A stretch of DNA of 54,755 bases from a virus. The position numbers and the translations under genes were made by a program. The notes under the pieces were generated by a model that saw only the letters and a program-made list of their open reading frames with translations, was not told the origin of the DNA and searched no databases. Within the stretch, counting starts at the first letter, position 1, and the number at the start of each line of letters is the position of its first letter. The stretch is from IMG/VR virus record IMGVR_UViG_3300025168_000110, positions 1 to 54,755 of that record; one strand, given 5' to 3'. Of the stretch, positions 1,823 through 46,511 are shown in pieces.

Positions 1823-3325
1823 ATGGCAACAACAAGTACGGGTACGTATGGAAGAGGAACAACTGCTGCGAATGCACTTAACGCAAATTTGTTACAACAT
1901 CCAGAAATTGCTAAAACTTTAATATCTCTTTACCCAAGATATTCTATGACATATCTTCTTGAAAAAACTAGAAGACATGCTGCTGAAAAAGTTTTAGGAG
2001 ACAGTTCTTACGAATGGAAAGTAATGAATCGTCTAAACAAAAAAACTATAATTAAAACACACGGTACACCTGCTGGTGGATCTGGTGGTGCGTCTGCTGC
2101 TGCTGGCGTTAACATTGTAGATTTAATATTTACACCAACAAATGGTGGAACTGCTGAATCTCAATTTAATTTATACGATGTAGTTAGATTCCCATCTGGA
2201 GCTACTGGGCTAGTTATTGCAGGTCCTGATGCTGATCATAAATATACAATTGAAGCTATCACAGATGTAACTGCTGCTGATAATACTGCAAATTCTGTAG
2301 TTGGTAGAATTGGTTCTGCATTCCCTGCTGGTTCTGCTGGATCTGATGTAGGAGAGAACAATGCTTACCCAGATACTTACAAGAACTGGATGACAATCAA
2401 CAGAAAGAAATGTACAATCACTGGTAAAGATGCCACTGATGTTTCTTGGGTTGAAAACAATGGTCAAAAATTATGGTACTTTACTAAAGAGAACCACATG
2501 ATGGATCAATTCATGTATGAGCAAGAATTACAAAGATGGTACGGACAAACGTCTGTAGCAACTGCTGCAACTAACTACTCTGCAACTAACACTGATATCA
2601 TTTCTGGTATTGCTGCTGGTACTTATGCTGATGGTTCTGCAAGAGCTTTATCTACAACTACTGATGGATCATTCACAATTGGTGATGGTGTATTAGCACA
2701 GATTGACGGTTCTAATCAAGCTACATATGCTGCTGGAACATTAACTGAAGATATTATCACTGAGTTTATTGGTAAGATCTCTTTAAATGCTCAAAATGCT
2801 GAAGGTAACGAATGGGTGGTTTTCACTGGTACTGAAGGACGTATTGCGTTCCACAGAGCTATGAAAGACTTAATCGTTGCTCCTTCTGGTGCTATGACTG
2901 GAGGTTCTATGAAAGACATCAAAGCTGGTTCTGATGTATCTTTAGGTGGAAACTTCACATCTTACCATGCATTAGGAAACAAGATCACTATCGCTTACTG
3001 TCCAGTATTTGATGATGCTCATGTTCACGGTGCTTCAGGTGGTACTAATTCATTTGGTGATACTAGATTAAAAGAATCTATGAAGATGGTGTTTATGGAT
3101 TTTGGTACAACTTCTAGCGTTGCTAACGTAGAGTTAATCACTAAAGGTGCTGCTGGAATTAATCGTTCATTAGTTAAGAAATATGTTGGAGGTATGGTAA
3201 ACCCTTACGATACTAAAGGTATGTTAGCTGCTAATGGTGATGACAGATTCCAATGTCACGCATTATCTGAGTCAGGAATTGTTGTTAGAAACCCACTTTC
3301 TTGTGGAGTTCTTTCTGCTGCCTAA
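1823..3325 (+). CDS. Major capsid protein
   Basis: A 500-aa protein in the classic position after portal and scaffold genes. It starts MATTSTGTYGRGTTAANAL, then a helical segment with YPRYSMTYLLEKTRRHAAEK, followed by long Gly/Ala/Thr-rich beta segments, as in HK97-fold capsid proteins of crAss-like phages. The C-terminal part contains aromatic and Gly-rich strands (NFTSYHALGNKITIAYCPVF) like an HK97 P-domain. Codon use is noticeably more selective (GCT, GGT) than in neighbours, which fits a highly expressed virion protein. The start has an A-rich leader and no Shine-Dalgarno. A GC-rich hairpin follows the stop. Assignment is by position, size and composition. Confidence 0.75.
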   Translation: MATTSTGTYGRGTTAANALNANLLQHPEIAKTLISLYPRYSMTYLLEKTRRHAAEKVLGDSSYEWKVMNRLNKKTIIKTHGTPAGGSGGASAAAGVNIVDLIFTPTNGGTAESQFNLYDVVRFPSGATGLVIAGPDADHKYTIEAITDVTAADNTANSVVGRIGSAFPAGSAGSDVGENNAYPDTYKNWMTINRKKCTITGKDATDVSWVENNGQKLWYFTKENHMMDQFMYEQELQRWYGQTSVATAATNYSATNTDIISGIAAGTYADGSARALSTTTDGSFTIGDGVLAQIDGSNQATYAAGTLTEDIITEFIGKISLNAQNAEGNEWVVFTGTEGRIAFHRAMKDLIVAPSGAMTGGSMKDIKAGSDVSLGGNFTSYHALGNKITIAYCPVFDDAHVHGASGGTNSFGDTRLKESMKMVFMDFGTTSSVANVELITKGAAGINRSLVKKYVGGMVNPYDTKGMLAANGDDRFQCHALSESGIVVRNPLSCGVLSAA

Positions 3326-9245: not shown

Positions 9246-12200
9246 ATGGCAGAACAAAAAAAGAATAAACCATCTCCATCACAAGGAGCTCAACAGCCTC
9301 AAAAAGCAAACTATACAGTTCCACAAGGATTTACTCACGGTATGGTTAGTGATCCTGATCCTAGGTTTCAATTAGAGGGAAGTTATAGTGATGCTTTAAA
9401 TATTAGATTGACTAACGATAAGGGTGATAGCTTTACTGTTGAAAACATAGAGGGTAATAGCCAGTTTATTGATTTAGGCGAACTACAAAAACAGCTTAAC
9501 ACGCAATCAAAAGGTATATTAGGTAAGACAACAACTGGTAGCAATACTGTGTTTTCTGAAATATACTGGGATCCAAAAAGTCATGATGCTAATGGAAACG
9601 AAGTTGGTAATTATTATCCTTCTGTTGGAGCATTCCCCTTTACAGACTTAGGGCCAGGATACACAGGAGGTTCTAATATAGATTTAAGCAATAGAGCAAG
9701 TATAGTCGGTTATACAGCTTATGCTGATACAATATTTTTAATTATAGTTGCTAGGTTTGAGTTTTTTAATGAAGATGGAGTTGTTGTTTCAGAAACTGCA
9801 AATAGAACAATATTTCTTTCTGTAGTATTTAATGATGAACTAGAAGTAACAAAAGTAATTGATCATGCAGTTTGCTACAGTAACGAAGGGGGTAATTATC
9901 CTGATTTAAATATGGATATAGATAACCAGTGTAGAGTTGAGCATATGGTTGAAAATAGTTGTATATCTAGAGTTTATTGGACAGATAATAAAAATCAACT
10001 AAGAACAATAAATTTAGGAGCAGGAGGGAAAAACGTTTTAAGTAAAGAAGAATTAGATATTACTCCCTTAATGTCACCATCTCAACCAACATTAAAATCA
10101 ACAACGCACGGTTCTTTACCAGTTGGTGTATATCAATACTCATTTAAATATGTTTCTGCTAACGGGGGTGAAACAACATTTTCTCCTTTAAGTAATTTAT
10201 ATCACGCCTCAGATCAATCATTTAGCTCAACACTAACTTATGGTGGAGGTCCTCCTGGAAAAATAGGAGTGCAAGGCTTTACTATAACTGTATCCGACCT
10301 AGATCAAGACTTTAAATTTATAGAGCTTTACGCTTTAATGTATGAACAGCAAAACATACCTCCTAGAGTCGCCTTAGTGGCTAAAAAAGGAATTGAGGGA
10401 AGATCTTCTGTAGACTTTTCACATACAACATGGTTTAATCAAATAGAAGGGGGATTAGAGGATGTTTTAATAGAATCTAACACGTGGGACGTTTGCAAAG
10501 ATATTGCAATTAAAGACAATATTTTATTTGCAGCAAATATAAAATCTAAAAAGAACTGGATATCAGAAAAAAATTGGAACGTTAAGGTTGCTAGACATAG
10601 AATTATTGATGGTGAGGGAATCTTAACAACAAATGATTTTGCTATAAATCATTATAAAGACGGATCTTTAGTTTCTCCTACTGGACAAACAGACAGAAAC
10701 GGATTTACTATAAAGCATGGAAGATTATTACAACCATCTGAACATGAAGAATGTGCATTTGACGGTACAATTAACACGCCAATGTGGACTACTTTATTAG
10801 AAAATCAAAGACATTCTACGGATTCTGCGGCTTCAAATAGTGATGATAAAAATAGAACAGGTAGAATTAAACAAAGATTAGAATACAGATACTTATCCGA
10901 TTTAATGACACCAGGAGGGGAATCTTTTAATTATGGAGATAATACATCTGGAGGTTGTAGGGTTACATTTGGAGTTAAAGAAAGGGCTGCTGATCAAACA
11001 CAGAACACAAGTACATCTCCATATATTTCAGCAACAATACCTGGAGAAGAGATGCAAACAGATTTTGCTGGTTCTATAGCATATAATCCAAATGGTCAAC
11101 CAGAAACTAAATTTAAAACATCAATGTCTTTAGGTGGTTCTATGGACCCTCATGCTGCTGGAGATAAAAGAGGATATCAAAGAGGTGATGTTTATAGATT
11201 TGGAGTTCAGACATATGATTTAACAGGTGCTCCTGGAAATGTTTTATGGATAGGTGATATACAGATACCAGAACAACATGATGTGTTAAGAATGATTAAT
11301 GTAAATCAAACTGACTACACACCAATAAGACCAACCTCAACAACCCTATCAGGTACCGCTAACAGCCTAATAGTTCAGAAAAGTATAGTAAGACATAAAA
11401 ACGTAATGGACTTTAGATTATCTTATGTTTATGGGCATACTATACCTAAAGTAGATGTAGAGTGGTTTAGCGCTAGATTAGATACTGATAGCACTCAAAA
11501 TTTAGATGCTTATGTAAAGCACGATGGAAATCAAGATAGTCAACTTCCTAATAATGGGGCGAGTGCTTACACACCTACAGTAGAAGGATTAAGAAAAGCA
11601 GTTCCTTACTATGCATTCCAGAACACTCATGATGACACTCATTATTTAATGGATTTATATGTTAATTTTGAATTTATTATACCTAGAGATGTTGCTTCTA
11701 AAATATCTGGATTTAGAGTTGTTAGAGCAGAAAGAAAAGAAGATGATAGAAGGGTAGTTCAGCAAGGGCTATTGAACCAGACTATGCAGTACGGTACAGC
11801 TGAAGCAGGTTTAGAGGCTGGTTACGATAGTAATAAATTTTCAGTAGCTGACAATGCTTCTCTTGGAGACGAGCCTGTGTTTGTAAATGCTTTTAATAAA
11901 CAAGACCCAACAAAAGTAGAGCAGCCAGAATTTAATACATATCTTAATGGATATTTAGGGTTAGCAGAAAATTCTAACTTAGCATATTATAATGACTCAG
12001 CAACAGATGGAGTTTTAACATCAGGCCAAGCTGACTTGGCTGGTAAAATAGGTAGTTGGCCAGAAACAGAAGATAGTAAAAAATGGTATGGTGGCAACGG
12101 AGAAAACGGTAAGGGGGCTGGGTATTGGAATGTCCAAGCAAATCCTTTTCAAGGCCCTGGAGCTTATGGTAGACACAAAAGACATTGTTCTTATTTTGGA

Positions 12201-15200
12201 ACCTACCCTAAGTATTATAGCGGTTATTCTGATGGAACACAAAGCGAATGGGGTAATAATCAAATAAGCAGTAGTATATATACATTAGATTCTCCAGACA
12301 GTGCTTTTGGTATTAGACCATATCAATATAGAGAAGGAGACTTTTTAAGAATAGACAGCTCTTTAAAGCTGACTGATAAAGACAGATACACAGACACTAC
12401 CGCATCTTGGGCTGTAGGATACCCACACCTTTGGTACACTCATTGTAGAAAGAGATCTGAATTTTTAACTTTAGATCCCCATGGAACAGGTACAAGAGCA
12501 TCTCAACTAATTTGGGAACCATTATCATTTGATAAAACAGACATAGATTCAATTTCGTTTTGCACAAAAAGACATATAGACGAAGATTATAGTGTATTAA
12601 TTGGTAAATACTATTGTTATGATCCTTATTTTGGTATTGGTATGGAAATTGATGGTGGTATGTTTGCTGCTATGGCATATGGTGGATCTGGAGGTATTAG
12701 GCCTAGAAATGATTTTGGGTGGTCTTTACCTCTTACTGCTGGAAAAGAAATAGGAGATGGGGAGATTGTATCATCTTCTTTTTTCCAAAAATCAAAAAGG
12801 GTAGATGATGGTCAGGTTTACGGATTCTCAAATAATACTTTAGGGTATTATAAATCAGCATGGAAAACAGCTGAGGCTACGCATGGAGGTTTTTCTGCTT
12901 TTGGAGCAGTAACACTTGGTACTAATTCTATTGCTGCAATAAGAGACTATTCAACAGCAACATCAGGTAATGATGCTACTACTTGGACAGACGATGAATC
13001 TAATGCGGATGATTTCACATATGATACTGTGTCTACAATGCAAATGGGACTAAGGACAATTTTATTAGAAGTAGATAATTATGCAGCTACAGCAAAAAGA
13101 ACTGGAGATTCTACTGGTGAAGGGTCTTACTTTAACAATAATATAATTACTAGGCCTGGTCATAGATTTCATTCATGGTTTGCTCCTGTAAATTTAAGTG
13201 CTATATATGAAGGAGGTAGTTGGTTTACATACTATTTAACTGGAGGTGTAAATGGAACATTTTCCCATGAACCATCCAGTACCAATAATTTTAATTCAAC
13301 CACTGACGTTATACATAGTAGTGCTTTATTAACTAATTATAATAGTGATTATAGAACATTAGTAGACATAACTAAAGATAGTGTATCGTATAGATATGGA
13401 AGCCATAAAAGATCACTTATTCCTTTTAAATATTTATGCTCAATAGTTAGGCGTGTTGTACCATATGGTGGTTACGGAAAAGAAGCTATTGAATCAACAA
13501 GATACATTCCTTGTGGCAACTTTCATGCTGTAGATGATAAAGGATGGAACGGTTCAACAGACCCCGCTCAACAAATAGCTCATGTAAGTCAAGTCTTTGG
13601 AGGAGATACATTCGTAAACCTGTACTCTCACCAAAAAACATCATCTCCATACATGAAAAAATCTGCATCAAGATGGCAAGTGTTTCCTGTAGAATCTTAT
13701 GTTAATACAGATATGAGAAGTGGGCTTACATTAAATAGTGGAGATACTGAACTGGGAAAAGATATAAATCAACCTCCTTTTAGTAATAGTTGGTTATATA
13801 ATCCTGTGTTTTCTCAAGAAAATAATATTAAGTCAGGATTAATGATTGATGAAAATGTAACTTGTGAAGCTTTAGATTTACCTTATGAAATTGCTTACTC
13901 TAATACAAAAATATCTGGAGATCCAGAAGATGCGTTTAGGCAATTTCCTATTAATCAGTTTCATGACATGGAAGCTAAATATGGCGAGATTAATAGGATT
14001 ATAAACTTTAAGAACGAGATATATGTACTGCAAGATAAAGGATTTGCTAAACTTTTGGTAAACCCTATTTCTATGCTTAAAGATGAAACAGGAAATTCCT
14101 TATATACAGGGACAGGAGAAACTGTTGAAAACCATATATACATATCTACTAAACACGGAACAACACATAGGTTTAGTGTTGCTGCTAGTGAGCATGCTTT
14201 ATACTTTGCAGATAGTAATTATGGTAGATTGTTTAAATACGATACAGAAAAATTAGTATCTTTAGGAGATTCTTTTGGACAAAGAAACTATCTTAGAGAA
14301 ATAATGAAAGAGTGGAAAAGTGTAGCTACAACTGACGATGCTGGTGTAATGAGGAAAGATGTTAAAGGAGATTTAGATAATATTAAAAAAGAAGGTAGAA
14401 ATTATATTGGGGACAATCCTTTAAAATTTGTAGGTATTACATCTATATTTGATCATGAAAATAAAGAATTATTAGTAACATTTCATAATAGTAAATTTCT
14501 TAATGGATACGACAGAACTGATTTTGCTAATCCATATAGTCATCATCGTATGGGTGCAACTGTAAATGGCCAACAAATGGGTATATCTGAAACCCTTGTA
14601 TTTAATGAAGGTATAAACGCTTTTACTTCAAGATATAGTGTAGCGCCTCCATCTTGGATTGGAGGAGGATCTGGATCATTTTTAGTTACTCCAGAAAATG
14701 AAATAGCTGTTAGATCTATAATGAATATAAGAGCAGATTCTACAGCTTATGATCACTTGCCTTACAATATATATGGGTCTTATGACTCTCATTGGTATAA
14801 GCAGTATAGGTGTAATCCATTAAGTTTATGGCTATGGAATAAACATAAAGATGGTCACAAAACTAATTTCTTTGGAAAATTAGATGACACCCGAAGGTAT
14901 GTTGGAAATAGTTCAAACTTTGCTTTAGTTTCGCCTATAGATGGTACTGTAAACAGAAGTGTAGTAACAGTTTACGAAGGTCGCAAGCCTTATGCTGAAG
15001 AAAGTTATATTGAAAAAGTTATTGGTGAAATGCCTCAGCTATCTAAAGTGTACGATCATGTAAAAATACCTATGGTCAGCGATAATGAATTTTCATCATT
15101 AGAATTTGATTCCGAAAATAGCTCTCATAAAACAAATATAAATTATAGATGGAATTTTGAAGACACTCACCATGGTTGGTTATGGGATGCTGGAGGAAGT

Positions 15201-16067
15201 AATTATGTAGAGCCAACTATTAACTCTGTTACATCAACAAATGAATCCACAGTAGTTGTTTCAGATATTGTTCATCCAACTGACCCAGACGATGGTAAAT
15301 ACTTTTTCTTTACAGTTCCTGAATGGGATTCTTTAGCTGGAAATACATCTTGGAGTAATAATATATTTAATGTAAAACAATATAGAGATGGGATTTTAAT
15401 ATGGCAAGGAGATGTGTATGCTTGGAATAGTGCAAATGGTGTGCACGGTAGAAGGGTGTCGGGATCTGCTGCTGATCAATGGGAAATAGGTGATAAAATT
15501 AAAGGAGGTAATTCAAGCGGTACAATAACATTATCAGCTACAGCAAGCAATTCTCAATTTCATAGCCCACGTTTTGAAGATAAATTAAATTTAGACGGAG
15601 AGTTTAATAATATTATTAAAGTTAGAATAAAAAGAATATCTGGTACTAGTTGGCAGGGAAGATTATTGTGGATTGGAACACTAAAACACGGAGAATGGCA
15701 AAGATTAGATGAAGACTCATCTGACGAATATAGAGCTCAATTTGTTGACGAACCATCTAATATGAGTTCAGAATTTGTTACTCTTGAGTGGGATATGAAA
15801 GATACTGCAAGTTGGAATGATAGTATTATTGAAAGCCTTAGATTTGATTTTTCAAGTAGTGAATCAGTATTTGAAATTGATTGGATAGAAATAGGATCTA
15901 ACACAAGAGCAAAGCATCGTAATGGAATGTTAAAAGTTCCTTTAAGAAACGAGACCTCTCCAAACAGGCTAAGGGGTACATGGGCAAAAGTAAAATATAA
16001 AGCCAAAACTACAAATAAATTTAATATCTTTGCAATAATGGCAAAGTATAGAAAAACATTTAGATAA
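9246..16067 (+). CDS. Giant tail hub / muzzle-like (tail stabilisation) protein
   Basis: 2,273 aa. It starts with a disordered Gln/Lys/Pro-rich segment, then FTHGMVSDPDPRFQLEGSYS, an opening seen in large tail proteins of crAss-like phages (Gly-Met, then a yxDAxN element). The body is beta-rich and Gly/Asn/Tyr-heavy, with no membrane segment. Around residues 1570-1710 it has a propeller-like block: NEIYVLQDKGFAKLLVN, a GTGETVENHIYIS strand, and ASEHALYFADSNYGRLFKYD, matching the style of the crAss 'tail stabilisation/muzzle' protein that closes the tail tip. The C-terminal third (from about 2000) contains jelly-roll-like segments and may bind carbohydrate. It forms the end of the connector cluster, one base from both neighbours. 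It is longer than the muzzle-type proteins I know of. Confidence 0.65.
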   Translation: MAEQKKNKPSPSQGAQQPQKANYTVPQGFTHGMVSDPDPRFQLEGSYSDALNIRLTNDKGDSFTVENIEGNSQFIDLGELQKQLNTQSKGILGKTTTGSNTVFSEIYWDPKSHDANGNEVGNYYPSVGAFPFTDLGPGYTGGSNIDLSNRASIVGYTAYADTIFLIIVARFEFFNEDGVVVSETANRTIFLSVVFNDELEVTKVIDHAVCYSNEGGNYPDLNMDIDNQCRVEHMVENSCISRVYWTDNKNQLRTINLGAGGKNVLSKEELDITPLMSPSQPTLKSTTHGSLPVGVYQYSFKYVSANGGETTFSPLSNLYHASDQSFSSTLTYGGGPPGKIGVQGFTITVSDLDQDFKFIELYALMYEQQNIPPRVALVAKKGIEGRSSVDFSHTTWFNQIEGGLEDVLIESNTWDVCKDIAIKDNILFAANIKSKKNWISEKNWNVKVARHRIIDGEGILTTNDFAINHYKDGSLVSPTGQTDRNGFTIKHGRLLQPSEHEECAFDGTINTPMWTTLLENQRHSTDSAASNSDDKNRTGRIKQRLEYRYLSDLMTPGGESFNYGDNTSGGCRVTFGVKERAADQTQNTSTSPYISATIPGEEMQTDFAGSIAYNPNGQPETKFKTSMSLGGSMDPHAAGDKRGYQRGDVYRFGVQTYDLTGAPGNVLWIGDIQIPEQHDVLRMINVNQTDYTPIRPTSTTLSGTANSLIVQKSIVRHKNVMDFRLSYVYGHTIPKVDVEWFSARLDTDSTQNLDAYVKHDGNQDSQLPNNGASAYTPTVEGLRKAVPYYAFQNTHDDTHYLMDLYVNFEFIIPRDVASKISGFRVVRAERKEDDRRVVQQGLLNQTMQYGTAEAGLEAGYDSNKFSVADNASLGDEPVFVNAFNKQDPTKVEQPEFNTYLNGYLGLAENSNLAYYNDSATDGVLTSGQADLAGKIGSWPETEDSKKWYGGNGENGKGAGYWNVQANPFQGPGAYGRHKRHCSYFGTYPKYYSGYSDGTQSEWGNNQISSSIYTLDSPDSAFGIRPYQYREGDFLRIDSSLKLTDKDRYTDTTASWAVGYPHLWYTHCRKRSEFLTLDPHGTGTRASQLIWEPLSFDKTDIDSISFCTKRHIDEDYSVLIGKYYCYDPYFGIGMEIDGGMFAAMAYGGSGGIRPRNDFGWSLPLTAGKEIGDGEIVSSSFFQKSKRVDDGQVYGFSNNTLGYYKSAWKTAEATHGGFSAFGAVTLGTNSIAAIRDYSTATSGNDATTWTDDESNADDFTYDTVSTMQMGLRTILLEVDNYAATAKRTGDSTGEGSYFNNNIITRPGHRFHSWFAPVNLSAIYEGGSWFTYYLTGGVNGTFSHEPSSTNNFNSTTDVIHSSALLTNYNSDYRTLVDITKDSVSYRYGSHKRSLIPFKYLCSIVRRVVPYGGYGKEAIESTRYIPCGNFHAVDDKGWNGSTDPAQQIAHVSQVFGGDTFVNLYSHQKTSSPYMKKSASRWQVFPVESYVNTDMRSGLTLNSGDTELGKDINQPPFSNSWLYNPVFSQENNIKSGLMIDENVTCEALDLPYEIAYSNTKISGDPEDAFRQFPINQFHDMEAKYGEINRIINFKNEIYVLQDKGFAKLLVNPISMLKDETGNSLYTGTGETVENHIYISTKHGTTHRFSVAASEHALYFADSNYGRLFKYDTEKLVSLGDSFGQRNYLREIMKEWKSVATTDDAGVMRKDVKGDLDNIKKEGRNYIGDNPLKFVGITSIFDHENKELLVTFHNSKFLNGYDRTDFANPYSHHRMGATVNGQQMGISETLVFNEGINAFTSRYSVAPPSWIGGGSGSFLVTPENEIAVRSIMNIRADSTAYDHLPYNIYGSYDSHWYKQYRCNPLSLWLWNKHKDGHKTNFFGKLDDTRRYVGNSSNFALVSPIDGTVNRSVVTVYEGRKPYAEESYIEKVIGEMPQLSKVYDHVKIPMVSDNEFSSLEFDSENSSHKTNINYRWNFEDTHHGWLWDAGGSNYVEPTINSVTSTNESTVVVSDIVHPTDPDDGKYFFFTVPEWDSLAGNTSWSNNIFNVKQYRDGILIWQGDVYAWNSANGVHGRRVSGSAADQWEIGDKIKGGNSSGTITLSATASNSQFHSPRFEDKLNLDGEFNNIIKVRIKRISGTSWQGRLLWIGTLKHGEWQRLDEDSSDEYRAQFVDEPSNMSSEFVTLEWDMKDTASWNDSIIESLRFDFSSSESVFEIDWIEIGSNTRAKHRNGMLKVPLRNETSPNRLRGTWAKVKYKAKTTNKFNIFAIMAKYRKTFR

Positions 16068-18600: not shown

Positions 18601-18601
18601 T

Positions 18602-24243: not shown

Positions 24244-27200
24244 ATGGCTGGAGAAGACGATTTTATTAATTCACTAAATATTTTATTAGGAAGCGATGCA
24301 GATGCTAATTTAATAGGAAGCAAATCTATAGAGAAAGAAATCACTGACAATTATGATGATGAAATGGACAAGCCTTCTGGCTCATTCACATCTATGTTAG
24401 ACAATTCATCACAAGCAGAACAAAGAAGTATTGCCTTTGAACAATCTATGATGGGTGCTGGTGCTGAAAACGTGCAGCAAGATCAAAATGGAGTTATGAA
24501 TCAAATGGCACAAGGGCCAGCTCCAGATCAGCAAATTATTGATCCACACTCTATGATTGGTAATACAGCAGAGAGAACAGGAAGAGCAATTGCTTCTGGT
24601 TGGGGAGATTTAGTTAGTGGAACAGGAGATACAATGGATTTTATTTCTGCACTTGTAACTCCATGGGAGGCAGACGCCACTACATCTGTAGGTTCTTGGT
24701 TAAAAGGTATTGGTACAGAATATCAAAATGAAAACACATTAATATTATCTGAAAGTCTTAATGATATTACCATGGCAGATATGTTTAATGGTGAGTTCTG
24801 GTCTTCTAAAGTAGCAAGACAAATACCCTTTGCGTTATCATTTGTTATTCCTTACGCTGGTGGAGCAAGGTTAGGAGCTTATGCTTTAGGTAGGTTTGGT
24901 ATGGCAGCAGCTAGATCATTACAAGCAACTAAAAATGTCGGAACAATGGGAAGGGGAATTGGAGCGGCAGCAAATAAAGGATCTGGTCTTTTAGGAAAAT
25001 TAGCGTTTGATGGAGGTAAAAAAGGACTGCAAGCAACTAAATTTACCAGAAATGTTGGTGGCTTTGTCGGAGGAGGTGTTGGTGCAAATTTAGCAGAAGG
25101 AGCTTTTTTAGCTGGAGAATCATATGATGAAATGTTGTACCAATTAGATGAAAGTGGTCAGCCATTATTTTCTCCACAAGAAGCTGCTGAACATGCTTCT
25201 GGCGTAATGCTAGATAACTTTAAGTACTTTATGGTTGATGCTGCTCAGTATGGACTTGTATTTGGAGGTGCTGGTAAAGGATTGACTAGAAAATTAATGA
25301 TGGGTGGATTCAAAAATACTCCATTCAAAGCCAGTGTAGGTCATTTAATAAAAGGAGGAATGCAAAAAATTGCTCCACACTTAGCCCCTACTGCTGCATA
25401 TGCGGGTATTGAAGGTATTTCAGAAGGTATACAAGAGCTATATCAAGAATGGATTAAATATACAGCATTACAAGAAGCTAAAGGTAAGGATTATAAAACC
25501 TATATGGATTGGATGAAAGATGAGGGTGGTAATTATAGGCCTGAAGTTAGAGATATATTTTTTACATCAGTAGGATTAGGAGCTGCAATGGGGGGAAGTA
25601 GAGGTTTTTTTGACTCTATGGCTGAAAGAAAGAAAATGCAAGAAGAGAAGCATGCAAAATTTATAGAGCATGCAAGTAAAATAGATGCAGCTCAAACAAC
25701 AGAAGAAGAATATTTAGCTACACAATATGCTGTTGATCATGTCATAGCTGACAATGTATGGAACTACGGAGGAGATGGTTCTGTTGTATTTGCTTATTTA
25801 GATAAATTAGTTTCTTCTGGTAAAATGACTCAAGAAGTTGCTGATGAATATAAAAAGTCTGTTGAGGTGTCGGAAGCTAATTATAGTAAACACAGCATGA
25901 ACTCTATGCTAACAGAATCTGCCGCAAAACAAGCGTTTTTTAGAGAGACTAGATTAACTAGAAATGCTACACAACAGGCGCAGCAAAATGCCCTATATGA
26001 AAGTGATGTTAAAAAAGTTAATGAAACAATTTCAGACGAGTCTAAGAAGAATAAAATGCTTGCACAATTAGAGGCAGACCACCTAGGTGTTATGGAGACA
26101 TTAAAAACTGAAGAGGCTGAAGTTAATAGAGAGTTAGAAGATTTATACACATTAAGAATTGATGAAGCTCCTACAGCTAAATCTACAGGTAAGAGAGACG
26201 CTAGATTCAAAAAACAAGGACTTACTCCAGAAGAGAATTTAGAGTATTCTCAAGAAGCGCAAAAAGAAAAAGAAAGATTAGAGAAGGGAGAATTTACGCA
26301 AACAGAAAGAGAACAAGAGCTTCATAAATTATCTAAATCTGATATGACATTTGATCAATGGAAGGCAGATGTTATTAAAAGAGAGGGTGCTGATTATTTA
26401 AATTCATTTACTAATGAGCAGATAATGCAATTAAAGAACCCATCTTTAATGGATAAAGCTCAAACGTTAGGAGGTAAAGCTTTAGAGGTTGGTAAAAGTT
26501 TACTTGATAAAGCAAAAACTGTAGTATCAGGTTTAACTAATTCAGAAAAAACTGAATCAAAAGAAGAGGCTAAAAAGCCAGAGGCTAAAAATACAATTAT
26601 TGAAGACAATCTTACGCAAGCAAAAAATTGGGTAAAAAAGAATTTACATATTTCTAAAGATAAAGTATCTAAAATAATTGAAGAAGTTAAGAAGGCTGGG
26701 GGTACTGCTGCTGATGTTATTAGTAAGCTTAAAGCAGAAAAAACTTTAAAAGGAGCTTCTAAAAAAGTTTATGACGCTATAGAAAAATTTGCTAATGATA
26801 GAATTGAAGGGAAGGAAGGTAAAACTTGGAAAGAATTTATTAAAGATAAATTATCTGTTGATAAAGAAGGTAAAGTTACCGTTGAAGAAAAAACAAAAGA
26901 AGACACTATTACTCCCAAAATAATAAAAGATAGTAAAAAATCAAAATATGCTAAGACTGAAGAAATGCAAAATAAGGGTAAGCCTATTACAAATTCTACA
27001 GATACAATAACAGTTGATGGGGTTGATTATAGATTTAGAATAGAAGAGTTTAAAGATGGAACTATTTTATACAATGTAAGTGAAATAGCTGCAGATAACA
27101 AGGGTGGTATGCCAATTAGGTCATTAACAGAAAAAGAATACAAATCTTTAATTGAAAAGTCTCAAGAAGACGTAAAAAAAAAAGATAAAACCGAAAAAGT

Positions 27201-30200
27201 AAAGGTTTATCCTAAAAACAAAACTTTTAAAAAGATAGAGGAATTTCTTAGAAGCATTGGAGGGTCTATTGTTTTAAAAGGATTAGAGGTTGTTTATGGA
27301 GGAGGAACAACATGGGGAGGTAAATCTATTGTAATTAAAAGAGATGGGGAAGATTTAAGGTTTTATGACTTTAAAGGAGATATCCTAAAGCTTATTGAAA
27401 AAAATATTAATAAGCCAACAATACTTAAAAACATTGAATTACGATTAAGAGATCCTAAAAAAGGAGCTAAAGACGTAGTTACAATTAATGGTAAGCACTA
27501 TTTTCATTTTCCTAAATCTCGTACAGAAACTGCAATGTATGATACTATTGTAGATGTTTATGTAGATGGCAAAAGAGTAGGGGAGTTATTGCAAAGAGAC
27601 TGGAACTCTAAAATTATTACAAGAAAGGCTAAAAAGCAAGACGTTAGAAATATTGATAAAGTAATTGGCAAGTTAAAAGAAACTAAAGAAAATATTAAAA
27701 AGCTTTTAAATTCTACTTTTACAGAAGACCAAACAACAGAAATACTTAATATTAATCGTAATCTAGAAGTGTATCAATCTTCTGGTATTGGTGCTTGGGT
27801 TTTAACGCAAAGTGTTGTACAGCGACAATTTCCTGGAGCGAGAGGATATGTTGTTTCTCAAAAACTACATGACGACTACGGTTCTGAAGCTACTGCTTTA
27901 GCATTAGGATCTGCTTATGTTTTAATTAATGAAAAAGGTGTTGAGCAAACAGATTTAATTCACGAATTAGGTCACATATATTATTCTATTATGGAGAATA
28001 CTCCATTAATGAAAAGAATAAAAAAGTTATTGATTTCTAGTAAATTCTACCAGGACACTAAAGAAGAATACCCTGAGCTTATATTGTTTAATTACGACAA
28101 ACAACAAGTAACTCTTGGTGATTTATATGAAATGATTAATAATAATAAGTTTGGTTATACTAGCGATCTTATTAGTATTGTGGAAAATATAGAAGAGGCT
28201 GAAAAAAATAATAACAACCAAAGATTAATTGATTTATTTCATTCATTAAGAATTCAATTAAAAAATCAAGGAATTAAAGAAGTAAAAAAGAATGCACAAA
28301 AACACATAATAGAGGAGTCATTTACTAAGGCATTAGAAGCATCATCATACGGTACTGTAAATTCTATTATTAAAAATACTGAAGCACAAAGACAACTTAA
28401 AAAAGATTTAATTCAGTTTTATAAAGAAACTAAAAATTTAACTACTGAAGATGAAGCAAAAAGATTTCTTGACTTAACCGTAGAAAATATACAGAGCTTA
28501 TCTTTAGATGCTGCAATAAAACAAGTGCTTCTTGATTTTAATTCTCAAGACAGAAAAATTCCTATTGTTCAGAATTCTGGATACAAAAACAAAACAAAAG
28601 CAAAGAAAAAAAGATTATCTAAGCATGGTAGTTACAGTAATATATATTCTCATATAGGTGATGTTTCAGGTAAAAAAGGTCTAACAAAAACACAAAAACT
28701 AAACGCTGTTATAAAGGCTATAGCGCAAAGTAGCGGACTTACACAAAAAGAAGTTTCTAATAAATCTAAAGAATACATAAAGGCTATTATAGCTCAATCT
28801 ACAAGGCGTAACGACTTAAAGTCAGCTGACACTGTATTAGATAAAGAGTTAAAAGAAATAGGAATTGTTATTGAAGCAAGAGATGAAGTAACTGGAAAGG
28901 TAGAAGAACATACTATTGAAACTGCTAGATATGAAGAAAGCGAAAAGAACAAAGGCTTACCTACAACGGCATCTAATTTTATAAAAAAGATTACTGAAGT
29001 TTTTAATCATAAAAATCCTGACAATAAAATTAATAGAAAAAAACTATTGCATGCTTTATATGCACTAGCAAAACAAACGATGTATGATCCTTTTGATTAT
29101 GTTCCTGAATTAAGAAAGTCTGACAATCCCCATCTTATTTCTATGATAAAAGAATTAGATAGAATATATAATGGAGATGTAAATCTTACTAATGCTAAGA
29201 TGATGGAGCTTAAAGGGTATGTAGAAGGCATTAATATAGAAGTTTTAACTAATGGGGTTTTAAATATTAATGCTAAGACTGGTGAAATGTCTTGGAATAA
29301 ATATAAAACAACAAGCAGATCACTTGAGGCGTCTGTTACAAATTCAGTACTAAACCATGTTAAAGACAATAAAGATGTACAAAATAAATTAGCAAAAGTT
29401 TATAACGATTATTTCAATAAGAAAAAACCTTCTGTTAATGATAAGTATAATGCTGCTAATAAGTTTTTAAATATATTATTAGATGTAAAAAACAATCCTA
29501 AAGGAAGTCTTATTGATATTCCTTCACTATTAAATAATACAATAATGTATGAGGGTAAGGAACAGTATCTTTATAATATGTTATTTGAGCACACTATAAA
29601 CCCTCAATATAATACGCCTATTTTAAAAAATAAGTTTATGGTGTATGACGGAAAAAAGAGAGAGTTTGTTGCTAGTATACCTCAGTATGAGCCTTTTGAA
29701 TTATTTTTTGGATCTCAAAGCTCGTTAAGAAATATTATTAACGAAGGCCTTGTTCTTTCAAGAGGGATAAATTACTTGTCTATAGTAGATAGTGTAACAG
29801 GTGACGCTATAAGCGTATTTAATAAAGAAAACGGATTACAAAATAGAATTAAAAATGTTGCTAATGTTATTAATGAAGGGGTTTATATAGAAGAAAACGA
29901 TATAATGCATTCTGACAATAATATCTATTCTTATATATTGCAAGAAAGAAAAAATAAAAATAAACTTGCTAATAGAAAAGGAAAGGTAGTTAACAATCCA
30001 TTAAGACTTACAGTTCATTCTGGTCTAATGAGATCGTTGATAGGTATGGCGGAACATAAAGCGCATGTTAATTATGAGCAAAGAGCAAACAAACTAAATA
30101 ACACATCTCCTAATGAGCTCTTAGCTAATGATTTCTTTATGTGGCTTGCAAGGTACCAGGAAGGTAAAAAGAATAAAGACACAACTATTATATATGATCA

Positions 30201-33200
30201 GCCTATAGCTGTATTTTCTGATAAAAGTAGAAGATATTATATAGAAAGTATAATGGCTCATGATGAACAAAGCAGGCGATTGATATTATCTAAAATAGAA
30301 AACAATCCTGCGTACAAAGCTAAATACTCTGACGGCAAATCTGATGTATTTCCATTTAAAATAAGAGATGGTAGAATTGTTAACATACAAGATGAAGTAA
30401 AAAAATTAAGCAAAGAGATAGGTAAAAATCAAGAGCTGTTTACTAGTAATAAAGACTATAAAGACATTAAGAATAAAAGAGAAGTTTACGAAGCATTCTT
30501 AACATCTTATATTGCTAATAGATTTATGGCTCAACAATTATTTGTTCATGATCATAGACAATCTAAAAATGAAATTGACTATGTTAAAAGAGCTGCTGGA
30601 GCTATTGCAAGTCATACCGTGTATGACAGAAACTCTCAAGTTGAATTTATTATTACTAAAGATTATTTTGTAGATGATGATAATAATTTAACAACAGAAG
30701 AAACTGATGGTGTTGCTATTGAAAACGATGCTATGGGGTACGTTTTACCAGGTCAAGCTAAGATTATACGTAACAAGTATGGTGAAATACAAAAGGTAGG
30801 TAATGTCTTTAAGTTTGTTTATCATTATACAGAAACAGACGGGAAGTTGAAAGGGAAAACAACATACATGAAATTTGCTGTGCATGTATTAACTCCTGAG
30901 CTAGAGGCCTTAAGTCCAGAGATGACTAAAATTGGAGATATACTTAGGGCTAGAGAGGCAAATGTTAATGAACTATCTAAAGTTAAAAACAATCTTATAA
31001 TTGCTGCTTCAGAATCAGCAGCTAAGCTGTTTAAAGACGGTATAAGAACAGATAATCACATTTATGATATTAACCAGCTAAACGCACAAGAAATTAGCGA
31101 CAAGCAAGATGAAATACATTTAGACGAATCAGGATATAGAGGTTTGTCAGGAGAAGGATTAGGCATACAACTAGAGTTAGATAAACAAGCTAGTGAAAGG
31201 TTCTTCCCTTCACAATTATTTTACAATATAGCAACTAACATTAAAACAGAAGAAGAGGTTAAACTTGTTAATGAAATGTTTGAGCTGAGAAAAAAAGTAA
31301 TGGATGCTAATAATACGCAGAGAAATAAATCTCTTATTATGAATGATTCTGCAACGGAGCAGGATGCTTTAGCCGAAAGAGATTCATTTAAATCATCTAT
31401 GTCTGCTGATGTATTTGGTATAATGGTAGATAGCTCTTATGAGTTGTTAGATCCAAGATATCCATTTATGAATGCTTCTCATAATTCTATAGCTCTAGGT
31501 AAGATTACAAAGAACGGAACTAAGATGTATACTAAAGGAAGTATTGGGTATCAATCTTCTAGTTTAGGTATGGGATTACAATCTTATAAAAAAGGATTAT
31601 TTAAAGGAGATGAAAGTGTAGTTGCTTCTGAAGCCTATGTTCCTGGATATTTACAAGGTGATGGAGTTAAAGTTGGTGATTTATTTATAGGCACAAGAGT
31701 ACCTGCGCATGGTAAAGTAAGTAGTTCTGTTTTTGTAGTTAAAGGATTTCATAAACAAATAGGAGACTCGCCAACATCTAATATAACTATACCTGCACAT
31801 GTAAGTAAGAACTGGGGAGCTGATTTAGATGGAGATTCGGTTCACATGAATTTCCAATGGACAAAAAAAGAAGTTGCTGAAAAAGAATGGAGATCATGGT
31901 CTAATGAATTTTTTCTTAAATATGTAGAGCTTGTAAGTACAAAAGAAAGGCAGTCTGAGATTAAGGCTGATATTGATTTTATTACAGATTCAGACAATGC
32001 CATATCAAACACTAATAAATTAATTGGAATAGATTCTTCTGATATTAATTCACAATTAACGCCTATAGGCGATGCACAGATGTTTGAAGATAACGTACCA
32101 GCTAAAGACTTAGTAGGAATGGTTGCTGCATTACAAAGATCATTTAATATATTTTCTAGCGGAAAAGGAGAAGCTCTTCCTTTTGGTATATCAATTAAAG
32201 ATACAGATGGTTCGGTTAATAAACATACTGACGGTAAGCCAATTGAAAAATACTTTGACAATAAAGAACTAGAAGGAGGTGTTGGGAACTGGTTTGGTGT
32301 AGCTCAATTACTTAATATAGTGCTTGATAATGCTAAACATCAATACGCTAGTAAACTAGGATTAAATAGAAACAGTGTATTTCCTTATACATACTTAAGA
32401 AGACTTGGGTTTTCTTTAGATCAATTATCTTTATTATTTAACTCTCCTGTAGTAAAAGAGTATATGGAGTTTAAAAGAAATCGTAGTAAAAACTATATCT
32501 CTAAAGGTAAGGATATTAACGATATGTTTAATCAGTCAGATGAAATGAATCTTAATGAGCTAGTTGAATTTTTGGAAACACAAAACATTAAGTCTTTATC
32601 AAAAACATATACTGATATAATAACAGGTAAACCTAAGAAGGGATACAATAAAACAACATGGAACAAACTAACTAGCAGACTAGACTCTGGTATTGAAATT
32701 GATTTAAATGGACTTATTAATAGAGAGCAGGCAGCTGAAGTAGATGCTATTTTAGCTTTATATGCGTTAAGCAAATATAACAGTGATATAGTAAGACCTT
32801 TTTCTATGGCATTTACAGTACATCAAACTATTGAAAAAAATCCTGTTGAACTACATAAGATACATAATGACATACTTAAAATACGACAAGGGCCAGTATT
32901 AATTAATGATAAAACATCTGGAGGCTTAAACATAACTTATGAAATGGGCGATAGTGCTAACAATGCAATTGTAAATCACGCTGTAGGACTTTTTGATTCT
33001 ACCTTAAAAAGAGCATCTCGTACTGATATTAGATTTACTCCATACATGCAAAGTATATTAACTACTCCTAAAGCCGAAGAGTTGTTAGAAAAGAATAAGG
33101 ATTTTAAAAGTAAAATTATAAATCAAGTAATTGTAAACGATTTAAAACAAAACATAGAGCTTCTTACAAATGAAAAAAGCGTAGAAGCTTTAGTTAATGA

Positions 33201-36200
33201 TTTAATAAGTTTAAGATTAAAATATCCTGATAATTTCTTTTTGCATAATGTATTAGATATTAACGAAAAAGGAAATTATATTTCTGTAAACAGGGTTAAT
33301 ATAACTGAGTTTACTTCAAGAAAAACTATTGATCAAATAAAAGAATCATTTGCATTAATAAGTTTAGAAGATAAAAATTTAATATTTGATATGGAATATG
33401 AGTTTAATAAATTTGGATTTACTGGAGATTTTTCTGGAGCAACTTCTTTTGTTCCGTTCTTTGATAATAATTATGTAGCTAAAATTAATGATGAAATATC
33501 TAAGATAGTAGAGTTAAATCAAACTAGAGAAGAAACTACAACTAGTAAATTAGATACAGCTATTAACCAAGTCGTAAGCCCTAAGAAAGGGACAGTTAGA
33601 CAAAGAGCTAAGAAATTAGCACAACATGATCATACTATTACAATTGAAAGGCCTAATAAAAGAGCTAAGAAAATAGGACCTGAAGTGTCTTATAGAAATT
33701 TTTCTCAAGATCCTAATAGCCCTGTAATGAATATGACTATGTGGGCGGCTGATAAAGGTATTGATTTAAATAAAATAGACAAAGAATCTAAAACTTACGA
33801 ATTATTAAATAATAGATACGCATCTTATAAAACACAAGTAGGGCTTGTTAATGAGTTTATTTCTGAATTAGACATGAAGCCATTATCTGAATACAATATA
33901 AAAGATTTATACACTATAGCTTCTGATTTTAGAAAAATGGATAATTCAGCAACAAAAGGATTAGCTTATCTTATAGAAAAAGAAATAGGGCAGCAAGCTT
34001 TTAGAGAGCAGGCTGAGTTTTTACAAAAGGCTGGTCGTAAACAAGGGTATGAGTATAATGTTCCTGGAGAGCAAGGAGTAGCTCAAGAAGACCTTACTAA
34101 TTACCGAGCATGGTTAGGGTCTAACAACATGACGTCTAAACGTCCTGAAATACAGTATTTAATTAACGAAACGCAAAAAGAATATAGAGAGTATTTAAAA
34201 GCTTTTAAAAGATATAAAAACATTATAGATAAATCACACAATGCTTTATTAAAATCTAAAAGATCTAGACTAACTACTATGGAAAGATTAAAGCAATCTT
34301 TTACTTCTTATGATAAATATAAATACATTTATGGTAATATTATAAGGATAAGCGGTGATAAAGTAAGGCTTCTTAATAGAGATGAAATTACTGAAGTGTG
34401 GGACACTTTGAGCACACAAGAGCAAGACTACTGGACTCAATACATGACAATAGCTAATATGTTAATTGGAGCTGAAGAATCAAACGGTATGAAAGTTCCT
34501 AATATGCAGATGGGTAATTTAGAAGCTATGTCTAAAAATGGTTTATTTGGATTGTATAATACAACTATTGACTCTTTTGATTATGAAAGAGTTAAGGTGT
34601 ATGGTACTGATAAAGATGGCAATAAAAGTTTAAAAACATTTTATGAATGGAAAAATGAAGTGTATAAAAACAGAACAGGTAAAATTACTTTAGATTCTGG
34701 TAAAAAAATATTTGAATTAGATAAGTTAAGAAAAAAAGCAAAAGAGTTAAAGAAGCTAAATAAACATGAAGATAACTCTCCTATATTATTATCTGATAAT
34801 GAGTATGACGCCTTAGTTAATAGCGCTTACAAGCTTAAAGCAATGGTAGGTCATGATGTTAGTGATGTTGATGCTGAATTAATAAATGAATACGATAGAA
34901 GACAGGGTTCTGCGTTAGAGCAAAATACTCTTAACATACACACAGCTTTATTAGAATTTACTAGAAGCTCTTTGTTTATGCACGGTGAAAACACTGAAAT
35001 TAATCCTGAAGGATTTGCTGGTATGCATAAAACATCTATTCTTACTGATTCTGTTATAGCGTTTAATAAAGATTTAGACAATACTAATGCTGTTAAATAT
35101 CTTACTAAATGGTGGAAAGAAGGATTTTTAGAAAAGAAAAAACAAGAAAGTATTTTTGGAAAAAAGGCTGACAAAGTTATTGATGGATTTGTACAGCTTA
35201 CATCTTTAAGGCTACTAGGGTTTAGCTTAAGTGTGGGTGTAGGTAACGTTCTTGCAGGTAAATATCAAGAATTAAGAAAAAGAGGAGGTAAACAATTTGC
35301 CACTGGAGAGGTTAGATTTTGGAAAGACTGGTCTAAATCAAGAGAGATTCTAAAAAAACACAGAATAATTGATTATAGTTTTGATGACTTTGTTCATCTT
35401 TCAGAAAAGAAAGGTGCGTGGGGTAAGATAGAAAAATGGTCATTTATGTTTATGGATCAATCAGAGCACTACATACAAGGCTCAGCATTTTTAGGCATGC
35501 TAACTAAAGAAGAATTTCAGTCAGGTGAGATATCTCAAAAAAGAGTTATGTATATCAATCATAAAATATCAACAATACATGGTGAGGGTTATACTTCTTT
35601 TGATGCAAGTATGCTTTCTATGTACTCTTATGGTAGGGCATTACTACAATTTAAAAAGTGGTTTATTACTTTAATGCAAGATAGGTTTTCTGCTGAAGAA
35701 ATTGATAGATTTGGAAAAGTTAATGTAGGAAGCTATAGGGCTGCTGGTCAATTTGCTAACACAACAATAAGAGACTTCTTTTCAGGTAAGATTTCAATGA
35801 AAGAGGTTATTGATATATATAATAAGTCAAGCGCACATAGACAAGAAGAAATTTTAAGTTACTTAAGAGGCGTTGGTATAGGATTATCTCTTATAGCTTT
35901 AATAGCAATGATGGAAGACGATGATGAGCAAGACACTAAAGCTTTAAGAACTTTAAAAAAGTTATCTCATGATGTTTTTGTAACTACAGATATAAATAGA
36001 TTTATAAACTATACAGCTGTTCCAGCATCTACTAGTACACTTAAAAATGCCACAAGAGGCATACAAGAAGCTATAAGAGATGATAGAGTTAAAAGATCAG
36101 GGCCTTACGCAGAAGCAGGATCTTCTAAGGCTTTAAAAACGTTTAATATTGAAGTTAGTCCTTATTCTGAATTTAGAAAAGATTATTTAAACTTTGTCTA

Positions 36201-36246
36201 TGAGGGTAAAAAAGAGAAAAAGAAAACAAGTTCTTTAATTAGGTAA
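24244..36246 (+). CDS. Giant 4,000-aa virion protein: candidate RNA polymerase with zincin domain
   Basis: 4,000 aa uninterrupted. In order: an N-terminal region (about 195-300) with Gly/Ala-rich hydrophobic segments such as FALSFVIPYAGGARLGAYAL; a charged helical region (450-900); Lys/Glu-rich linkers; a zincin motif LIHELGH (H1240, E1241, H1244); a large polymerase-like region around GTRVPAHGKVSSSVFVVKGF and NWGADLDGDSVHMNF (D2527, D2529, D2531), followed by VLDNAKHQYASKLGLN; and a C-terminal part with LRGVGIGLSLIALIAMM (about 3875-3891), likely a membrane helix. The D-x-D-G-D motif with upstream R-x-P and downstream D-N-A-K elements matches the single-chain YonO-like/crAss-like virion RNA polymerase family. 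The closest characterised relative is the polymerase of Cellulophaga phage phi14:2 (about 2,180 aa, from memory), so this protein would be roughly twice as long. It is probably packaged, ejected, and used to transcribe early genes. The second barrel's lysines were not identified by eye. Confidence 0.75.
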   Translation: MAGEDDFINSLNILLGSDADANLIGSKSIEKEITDNYDDEMDKPSGSFTSMLDNSSQAEQRSIAFEQSMMGAGAENVQQDQNGVMNQMAQGPAPDQQIIDPHSMIGNTAERTGRAIASGWGDLVSGTGDTMDFISALVTPWEADATTSVGSWLKGIGTEYQNENTLILSESLNDITMADMFNGEFWSSKVARQIPFALSFVIPYAGGARLGAYALGRFGMAAARSLQATKNVGTMGRGIGAAANKGSGLLGKLAFDGGKKGLQATKFTRNVGGFVGGGVGANLAEGAFLAGESYDEMLYQLDESGQPLFSPQEAAEHASGVMLDNFKYFMVDAAQYGLVFGGAGKGLTRKLMMGGFKNTPFKASVGHLIKGGMQKIAPHLAPTAAYAGIEGISEGIQELYQEWIKYTALQEAKGKDYKTYMDWMKDEGGNYRPEVRDIFFTSVGLGAAMGGSRGFFDSMAERKKMQEEKHAKFIEHASKIDAAQTTEEEYLATQYAVDHVIADNVWNYGGDGSVVFAYLDKLVSSGKMTQEVADEYKKSVEVSEANYSKHSMNSMLTESAAKQAFFRETRLTRNATQQAQQNALYESDVKKVNETISDESKKNKMLAQLEADHLGVMETLKTEEAEVNRELEDLYTLRIDEAPTAKSTGKRDARFKKQGLTPEENLEYSQEAQKEKERLEKGEFTQTEREQELHKLSKSDMTFDQWKADVIKREGADYLNSFTNEQIMQLKNPSLMDKAQTLGGKALEVGKSLLDKAKTVVSGLTNSEKTESKEEAKKPEAKNTIIEDNLTQAKNWVKKNLHISKDKVSKIIEEVKKAGGTAADVISKLKAEKTLKGASKKVYDAIEKFANDRIEGKEGKTWKEFIKDKLSVDKEGKVTVEEKTKEDTITPKIIKDSKKSKYAKTEEMQNKGKPITNSTDTITVDGVDYRFRIEEFKDGTILYNVSEIAADNKGGMPIRSLTEKEYKSLIEKSQEDVKKKDKTEKVKVYPKNKTFKKIEEFLRSIGGSIVLKGLEVVYGGGTTWGGKSIVIKRDGEDLRFYDFKGDILKLIEKNINKPTILKNIELRLRDPKKGAKDVVTINGKHYFHFPKSRTETAMYDTIVDVYVDGKRVGELLQRDWNSKIITRKAKKQDVRNIDKVIGKLKETKENIKKLLNSTFTEDQTTEILNINRNLEVYQSSGIGAWVLTQSVVQRQFPGARGYVVSQKLHDDYGSEATALALGSAYVLINEKGVEQTDLIHELGHIYYSIMENTPLMKRIKKLLISSKFYQDTKEEYPELILFNYDKQQVTLGDLYEMINNNKFGYTSDLISIVENIEEAEKNNNNQRLIDLFHSLRIQLKNQGIKEVKKNAQKHIIEESFTKALEASSYGTVNSIIKNTEAQRQLKKDLIQFYKETKNLTTEDEAKRFLDLTVENIQSLSLDAAIKQVLLDFNSQDRKIPIVQNSGYKNKTKAKKKRLSKHGSYSNIYSHIGDVSGKKGLTKTQKLNAVIKAIAQSSGLTQKEVSNKSKEYIKAIIAQSTRRNDLKSADTVLDKELKEIGIVIEARDEVTGKVEEHTIETARYEESEKNKGLPTTASNFIKKITEVFNHKNPDNKINRKKLLHALYALAKQTMYDPFDYVPELRKSDNPHLISMIKELDRIYNGDVNLTNAKMMELKGYVEGINIEVLTNGVLNINAKTGEMSWNKYKTTSRSLEASVTNSVLNHVKDNKDVQNKLAKVYNDYFNKKKPSVNDKYNAANKFLNILLDVKNNPKGSLIDIPSLLNNTIMYEGKEQYLYNMLFEHTINPQYNTPILKNKFMVYDGKKREFVASIPQYEPFELFFGSQSSLRNIINEGLVLSRGINYLSIVDSVTGDAISVFNKENGLQNRIKNVANVINEGVYIEENDIMHSDNNIYSYILQERKNKNKLANRKGKVVNNPLRLTVHSGLMRSLIGMAEHKAHVNYEQRANKLNNTSPNELLANDFFMWLARYQEGKKNKDTTIIYDQPIAVFSDKSRRYYIESIMAHDEQSRRLILSKIENNPAYKAKYSDGKSDVFPFKIRDGRIVNIQDEVKKLSKEIGKNQELFTSNKDYKDIKNKREVYEAFLTSYIANRFMAQQLFVHDHRQSKNEIDYVKRAAGAIASHTVYDRNSQVEFIITKDYFVDDDNNLTTEETDGVAIENDAMGYVLPGQAKIIRNKYGEIQKVGNVFKFVYHYTETDGKLKGKTTYMKFAVHVLTPELEALSPEMTKIGDILRAREANVNELSKVKNNLIIAASESAAKLFKDGIRTDNHIYDINQLNAQEISDKQDEIHLDESGYRGLSGEGLGIQLELDKQASERFFPSQLFYNIATNIKTEEEVKLVNEMFELRKKVMDANNTQRNKSLIMNDSATEQDALAERDSFKSSMSADVFGIMVDSSYELLDPRYPFMNASHNSIALGKITKNGTKMYTKGSIGYQSSSLGMGLQSYKKGLFKGDESVVASEAYVPGYLQGDGVKVGDLFIGTRVPAHGKVSSSVFVVKGFHKQIGDSPTSNITIPAHVSKNWGADLDGDSVHMNFQWTKKEVAEKEWRSWSNEFFLKYVELVSTKERQSEIKADIDFITDSDNAISNTNKLIGIDSSDINSQLTPIGDAQMFEDNVPAKDLVGMVAALQRSFNIFSSGKGEALPFGISIKDTDGSVNKHTDGKPIEKYFDNKELEGGVGNWFGVAQLLNIVLDNAKHQYASKLGLNRNSVFPYTYLRRLGFSLDQLSLLFNSPVVKEYMEFKRNRSKNYISKGKDINDMFNQSDEMNLNELVEFLETQNIKSLSKTYTDIITGKPKKGYNKTTWNKLTSRLDSGIEIDLNGLINREQAAEVDAILALYALSKYNSDIVRPFSMAFTVHQTIEKNPVELHKIHNDILKIRQGPVLINDKTSGGLNITYEMGDSANNAIVNHAVGLFDSTLKRASRTDIRFTPYMQSILTTPKAEELLEKNKDFKSKIINQVIVNDLKQNIELLTNEKSVEALVNDLISLRLKYPDNFFLHNVLDINEKGNYISVNRVNITEFTSRKTIDQIKESFALISLEDKNLIFDMEYEFNKFGFTGDFSGATSFVPFFDNNYVAKINDEISKIVELNQTREETTTSKLDTAINQVVSPKKGTVRQRAKKLAQHDHTITIERPNKRAKKIGPEVSYRNFSQDPNSPVMNMTMWAADKGIDLNKIDKESKTYELLNNRYASYKTQVGLVNEFISELDMKPLSEYNIKDLYTIASDFRKMDNSATKGLAYLIEKEIGQQAFREQAEFLQKAGRKQGYEYNVPGEQGVAQEDLTNYRAWLGSNNMTSKRPEIQYLINETQKEYREYLKAFKRYKNIIDKSHNALLKSKRSRLTTMERLKQSFTSYDKYKYIYGNIIRISGDKVRLLNRDEITEVWDTLSTQEQDYWTQYMTIANMLIGAEESNGMKVPNMQMGNLEAMSKNGLFGLYNTTIDSFDYERVKVYGTDKDGNKSLKTFYEWKNEVYKNRTGKITLDSGKKIFELDKLRKKAKELKKLNKHEDNSPILLSDNEYDALVNSAYKLKAMVGHDVSDVDAELINEYDRRQGSALEQNTLNIHTALLEFTRSSLFMHGENTEINPEGFAGMHKTSILTDSVIAFNKDLDNTNAVKYLTKWWKEGFLEKKKQESIFGKKADKVIDGFVQLTSLRLLGFSLSVGVGNVLAGKYQELRKRGGKQFATGEVRFWKDWSKSREILKKHRIIDYSFDDFVHLSEKKGAWGKIEKWSFMFMDQSEHYIQGSAFLGMLTKEEFQSGEISQKRVMYINHKISTIHGEGYTSFDASMLSMYSYGRALLQFKKWFITLMQDRFSAEEIDRFGKVNVGSYRAAGQFANTTIRDFFSGKISMKEVIDIYNKSSAHRQEEILSYLRGVGIGLSLIALIAMMEDDDEQDTKALRTLKKLSHDVFVTTDINRFINYTAVPASTSTLKNATRGIQEAIRDDRVKRSGPYAEAGSSKALKTFNIEVSPYSEFRKDYLNFVYEGKKEKKKTSSLIR
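27940..27990 (+). other. Zincin HExxH motif in giant protein
   Basis: LIHELGHIYYSI with H1240, E1241 and H1244 (codons from 27961) fits the zincin metallopeptidase motif HExxH followed by a hydrophobic helix. It is preceded by a helix-strand region (ALALGSAYVLINEKGV) that is plausible for the active-site edge strand. A third zinc ligand was not fixed by eye. Confidence 0.7.
31690..31860 (+). other. RNA polymerase DPBB active-site motif DLDGD in giant protein
   Basis: Codons at 31822-31836 encode D-L-D-G-D (residues 2527-2531), the metal-binding loop of the beta'-type double-psi beta-barrel. The surrounding segment (GTRVPAHGK, then a hydrophobic strand, then ITIPAHVSKNWGADLDGD) has the spacing of beta'-type barrels, where an R-x-P element precedes the N-A-D-F-D-G-D loop. 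Confidence 0.75.

Positions 36247-44930: not shown

Positions 44931-44931
<1 letters not shown>
44734..44931 (-). CDS. Small HTH-like DNA-binding protein
   Basis: 65 aa, Lys/Arg-rich. The C-terminal half (RIWKYVTKGYTLKDIQHLTN, then VSWNTIDKIVK) has the spacing of a helix-turn-helix, with a putative recognition helix ending in T-I-x-x-I-V. Its ATG overlaps the groEL stop by one base (TAATG), so it is probably coupled to chaperonin expression. A regulator is likely, but the target is unknown. Confidence 0.5.

Positions 44932-46511
<1,580 letters not shown>

Follow-up and report, generated by a model that had tools for sequence, protein, structure and literature searches.

A predicted virion RNA polymerase with phi14:2-like flanking modules in one 4,000-codon frame of a divergent crAss-like phage

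CrAss-like phages of gut and sea package an RNA polymerase in their virions that turns on the earliest genes. The closest described counterpart of the locus analysed here is in Cellulophaga phage phi14:2, whose RNA polymerase (GenBank gp77, the protein in PDB 6VR4, and gp66 in the paper's numbering) is encoded between gp78 and gp76; all three are listed as structural on the basis of MS/MS. In the account of a review, this polymerase carries out early transcription and is rifampicin-resistant (PMC10136315). In Bacteroides phage crAss001, gp50 is a homologous polymerase with the motif DFDVD and gp49 is a homologous C-terminal module, and the RNAP-associated cargo proteins gp47, gp50 and gp49 were all found in virions by MS (PMC10172136). 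RNA polymerase genes are a hallmark of crAss-like phages and reach ~6,000 aa (PMC10136315), and gp96 of the Thermus phage P23-45 is a 5,002-aa tape-measure/vRNAP fusion that also contains metallopeptidase and membrane regions (PMC10770324).

The frame that we describe lies in the virus record IMGVR_UViG_3300025168_000110, all 54,755 bases of which make up the stretch analysed, hereafter the window. The predicted protein shares with the phi14:2 polymerase a two-barrel core, an Asp triad, R-x-P and DNAK elements and first-barrel lysines, and the flanking modules and gene order are alike; phi14:2 has three separate proteins and DFDID, whereas the window has one chain and DLDGD. CrAss001 uses three proteins encoded on two strands, with HEAFH in gp47, whereas the window has a single chain with HELGH. 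Like the predicted window protein, P23-45 gp96 is a two-barrel virion polymerase within a fusion and has a DxDGD motif; unlike it, gp96 has its polymerase N-terminal in the tape-measure protein of a long-tailed phage, lacks a clamp and gives a weaker structural match. The N4-type (Schitoviridae) virion RNA polymerase, at ~3,400-3,500 aa, is also giant and is ejected from a short-tailed virion. It has a T7-like single-subunit fold rather than a two-barrel fold, and we saw no relation between it and the window protein.

The frame and its genomic setting

Profile searches of the window identified the crAss-like markers Crass_capsid, CrAss_Ring_1 and CrAss_Ring_2, the end of a portal gene and a homologue of the muzzle protein; judged by its sequence, the source is a divergent crAss-like phage. 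Since the first base falls within the portal gene, the window presumably represents part of a larger genome. The bacterial genome contigs searched contained no relatives and thus gave no host link. The 4,000-codon ORF is placed after the portal, capsid, tail-ring and muzzle block, the same position as that of the polymerase genes in phi14:2:

1823..3325, plus strand: crAss-like major capsid protein (Crass_capsid, E 8e-28)
9246..16067, plus strand: muzzle homologue (phrog_28748, E 1e-55; phi14:2 gp82, E 2e-12)
24244..36246, plus strand: putative fused virion RNA polymerase ORF, 4,000 aa, ATG to stop, a single chain with counterparts of phi14:2 gp78, gp77 and gp76

The muzzle homologue is 2,273 aa long, versus 1,340 in phi14:2 and 1,371 in crAss001; only its residues ~1355-1683 align, and it therefore has large extra regions. 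Three large plus-strand ORFs of 843, 1194 and 684 aa fill positions 16069-24241 between muzzle and polymerase; the 684-aa ORF is kept across the window family, and none of the three matched crAss001 gp45/gp46 or phi14:2 gp79-gp81. On the minus strand, the window encodes a GroEL-like chaperonin (44931-46505; phrog_5725, E 5e-164) and, within a phage replication/repair block, a spore photoproduct lyase-like protein, a radical-SAM DNA repair enzyme (47216-48070; PF20903, E 6.8e-26). A Rad52-like annealing protein (51101-51595, minus strand; PF04098, E 1e-10) lies near an exonuclease VIII-like protein (48762-49565, minus strand), and the two are probably a recombination pair.

Scans of IMG/VR returned 17 relatives of the window protein, giving 18 independent contigs with the window included. 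The 4,000-codon frame is real: 12 members including the window contain it entire (3,811-4,100 aa, counted from the initial Met), each with HExGH and DLDGD in the same chain at a spacing of 1,277-1,368 residues (1,287 in the window). In one relative (L106), the polymerase frame is broken at 2180-2205, corresponding to about window residues 2278-2296 inside the core, through either a sequencing error or a real split. The window protein has a predicted mass of ~453 kDa. Searched as a whole against Pfam, PHROGs and PDB sequences it matched nothing, and no part of it is recognised by Pfam or PHROGs. In a tree, the family forms a deep clade with a stem of 2.5 substitutions per site and a support of 1.0.

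Sequence homology, catalytic residues and predicted fold of the core

The original prediction was of an RNA polymerase-like core related to that of phi14:2. Single-sequence searches with the core gave nothing significant (tblastn against known phages, E 0.4 or worse), and hmmsearch with the core profile alone against the PDB did not reach 6VR4. Because these ordinary searches came back empty, we used profile-profile comparison, with a profile built from 80 collected relatives of the phi14:2 polymerase. The core matched this family with a probability of 99.4 and an E-value of 2.8e-21 over 879 columns, placing GTRVPAHGKVSS over GYRIPNQGQSS and DLDGD over DFDID. A trimmed phi14:2-family template gave E 4.5e-20, and the reversed template gave nothing. 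By this profile evidence, homology to the phi14:2 virion RNA polymerase covers residues ~2079-2900, and the predicted relationship stands. The hhalign match between the window core and SPbeta YonO was limited to the DxDGD motif, and the phi14:2 family gave no match to YonO either.

The core holds the DLDGD motif, the upstream R-x-P and the downstream DNAK that had been noticed in the 4,000-codon frame, and the first-barrel lysines align with those of phi14:2:

30478..32943, plus strand: RNA polymerase core, residues ~2079-2900, assigned by profile, model and fold matches
30850..30873, plus strand: first-barrel lysines K2203 and K2210 (phi14:2 K1012 and K1027), kept in 73/74 sequences
31696..31704, plus strand: R-x-P (RVP), residues 2485-2487 (phi14:2 R1322 and P1324), R and P in 74/74
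31822..31836, plus strand: DLDGD, the predicted catalytic metal site, residues 2527-2531 (phi14:2 D1361/D1363/D1365), all three Asp in 74/74
32326..32337, plus strand: DNAK, residues 2695-2698 (phi14:2 D1612-K1615), Asp in 74/74 and Lys in 69/74

These counts come from a joint alignment of 74 divergent crAss-like sequences, 63 of them outside the window clade. Invariant throughout are R2116, Q2324, R2485, P2487, G2525, D2527, D2529, D2531 and D2695, and K2261 is kept in 73 sequences, as are K2203 and K2210; the phi14:2 equivalents of R2116, Q2324, G2525, D2695 and K2261 are R894, Q1116, G1359, D1612 and K1065, respectively. The window clade has the canonical DLDGD, and the 63 other sequences have DFDID or DFDVD.

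On its own, DLDGD is weak evidence, because DxDGD arises in 5.8% of shuffles of the 4,000-aa protein and the unrelated muzzle protein of crAss001, gp44, also carries DLDGD by chance. The motif nonetheless stands above chance, since every one of the family's 18 independent contigs has DLDGD and the three Asp are invariant across the 74 crAss-like sequences. A chance match within a large structural protein thus has a negligible likelihood: the profile comparison with its silent reversed control refutes it, and motif invariance and the fold match speak against it as well.

We modeled residues 1780-2900 with AlphaFold (AF2), using an input alignment that contained phi14:2-like rows. The model has a pLDDT of 74.6 and a pTM of 0.75, and most of the catalytic region exceeds a pLDDT of 85. 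A Foldseek search against the PDB returned 6vr4_A as the best match (E 7.9e-19), followed by the two-barrel polymerases QDE-1 and RDR2. In a structural aligner, the model superimposed on 6VR4 with a Z-score of 15.7 over 799 residues (rmsd 4.9, ~15% identity), compared with a Z-score of about 14 for QDE-1/RDR2 and 11.6 for P23-45 gp96; the alignments with QDE-1 and gp96 cover the span of both barrels. The core is thus predicted to form two double-psi barrels in a single chain, as had been expected around DLDGD. The fold match to 6VR4 is support rather than independent proof, because of the phi14:2-like rows in the alignment; the sequence-profile match stands on its own, with or without the model.

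Divergence from all characterised polymerases, with the long stem of the clade, would fit a degenerate or structural cargo protein in which the polymerase fold persists without polymerase activity. We consider this highly improbable, as the catalytic residues are all invariant in the family and the core is the best conserved part of the protein.

Flanking modules and the HExGH motif

The original prediction also held that the polymerase is fused to further modules, and both ends of the chain bear this out:

24769..25599, plus strand: N-terminal module, residues 176-452, phi14:2 gp78 family (hhalign probability 96.7, E 3.6e-10; reversed control, none)
26161..27633, plus strand: Lys/Glu-rich variable stretch, residues ~640-1130, recognised by composition and by lower family identity
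27961..27975, plus strand: HELGH, zincin-like motif, residues 1240-1244 (HExGH invariant in 16 members)
28312..28317, plus strand: EE, candidate third zinc ligand, residues 1357-1358 (invariant in 16 members)
35134..36186, plus strand: C-terminal module, residues 3631-3981, matching phi14:2 gp76 and the crAss001 gp49 C-terminus (hhalign probability 98.6, E 9.7e-16; reversed control, none)
35851..35907, plus strand: hydrophobic helix, residues 3870-3888, the sole stretch above 1.4 on the Kyte-Doolittle scale; gp76 has one at the matching place

Its N-terminus matches gp78, its core gp77 and its C-terminus gp76, so that this one chain corresponds to the whole gp78-gp77-gp76 virion module. Among related crAss-like contigs, the equivalent part of the genome is occupied by three, two or one ORF, and the split points vary. 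The single hydrophobic helix and the Gly-rich gp78-like domain make membrane activity plausible. Between the modules, the Lys/Glu-rich stretch is a probable linker. When the region upstream of the core (residues ~1077-2047) was compared with its positional counterparts in other crAss-like proteins, nothing matched, and no homology was established for residues ~450-2080.

This intervening region contains the HExGH motif, followed by EE in a gluzincin-like pattern across 16 members. Foldseek (including the PDB), VIA and Pfam searches with the HELGH region returned no peptidase; ahead of the motif its model has low confidence (pLDDT below 50 for model residues 1-95), and the missing PDB match is no evidence against a peptidase. 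Other crAss-like chains carry HEAFH at a similar distance upstream of the polymerase. A comparison of the two regions matched the motif only (prob 6). The protease part of the original prediction is, from these motifs, possible but unproven.

An invariant HExGH and EE within the same chain would suit a polyprotein whose HExGH domain perhaps cuts it, at virion maturation or on entry, so that ejection, polymerase and C-terminal pieces comparable to the separate phi14:2 proteins result; that phi14:2 and crAss001 encode the modules separately, and that relatives split them at differing places, points the same way. We nonetheless regard such processing as unlikely: neither a cleavage site nor a peptidase fold was found, other crAss-like fusions stay open beyond 5,000 codons, and virion polymerases occur as fusions in other phages too, as in P23-45 gp96. 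Doubtful, too, and somewhat less probable still, is one obligate ~450 kDa ejection/protease-like/polymerase chain whose own zincin-like domain would trim the chain or the host envelope during ejection.

Proposed role and place among virion polymerases

We consider it very likely that the product of the ORF is an RNA polymerase that a divergent crAss-like phage packages in its virion, with the gp78, gp77 and gp76 modules joined, and that this protein is ejected and transcribes early genes. Packaging, ejection and early transcription are proposed by analogy with phi14:2 and crAss001. The protein would most likely sit inside the capsid, close to the portal, and leave through the tail, partly unfolded, with or before the DNA. 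The chain ends may help it to pass through the cell envelope or to anchor there, after which the two-barrel core would transcribe early genes through its own Mg-binding DLDGD site, independently of the host RNA polymerase. With the modules fused, both their ratio and their order of exit from the capsid would be set.

Two statements about size in the original prediction did not hold. The fusion was called much longer than the phi14:2 polymerase, yet on either side of the phi14:2 gene lies one for an MS-verified structural protein, and these two proteins are the counterparts of the fused ends. Nor is the chain among the longest polymerase-bearing polypeptides, given the ~6,000-aa (PMC10136315) and 5,002-aa (PMC10770324) precedents and complete single-frame crAss-like polymerase ORFs in our set (L112-L115) of 5,224-5,641 codons. 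The latter resemble the window in joining the polymerase to long N-terminal and C-terminal parts in one frame; they are longer and have DFDID, and the window lineage forms a deep clade of its own. On these precedents, giant fusion is an already known trait of crAss-like phages, and what sets the window lineage apart at the sequence level is its deep branch and canonical DLDGD.

Together, gp78, gp77 and gp76 of phi14:2 are indicated to be one evolutionary module, which suggests that they act jointly during ejection. Were the obligate-chain proposal true, a single polypeptide would open the way into the cell and start transcription. With this family, the crAss-like virion RNA polymerases gain a deep clade that had not been annotated before, and because it retains the canonical DxDGD of cellular and RNAi polymerases, this clade is useful for reconstructing how two-barrel polymerases diversified.
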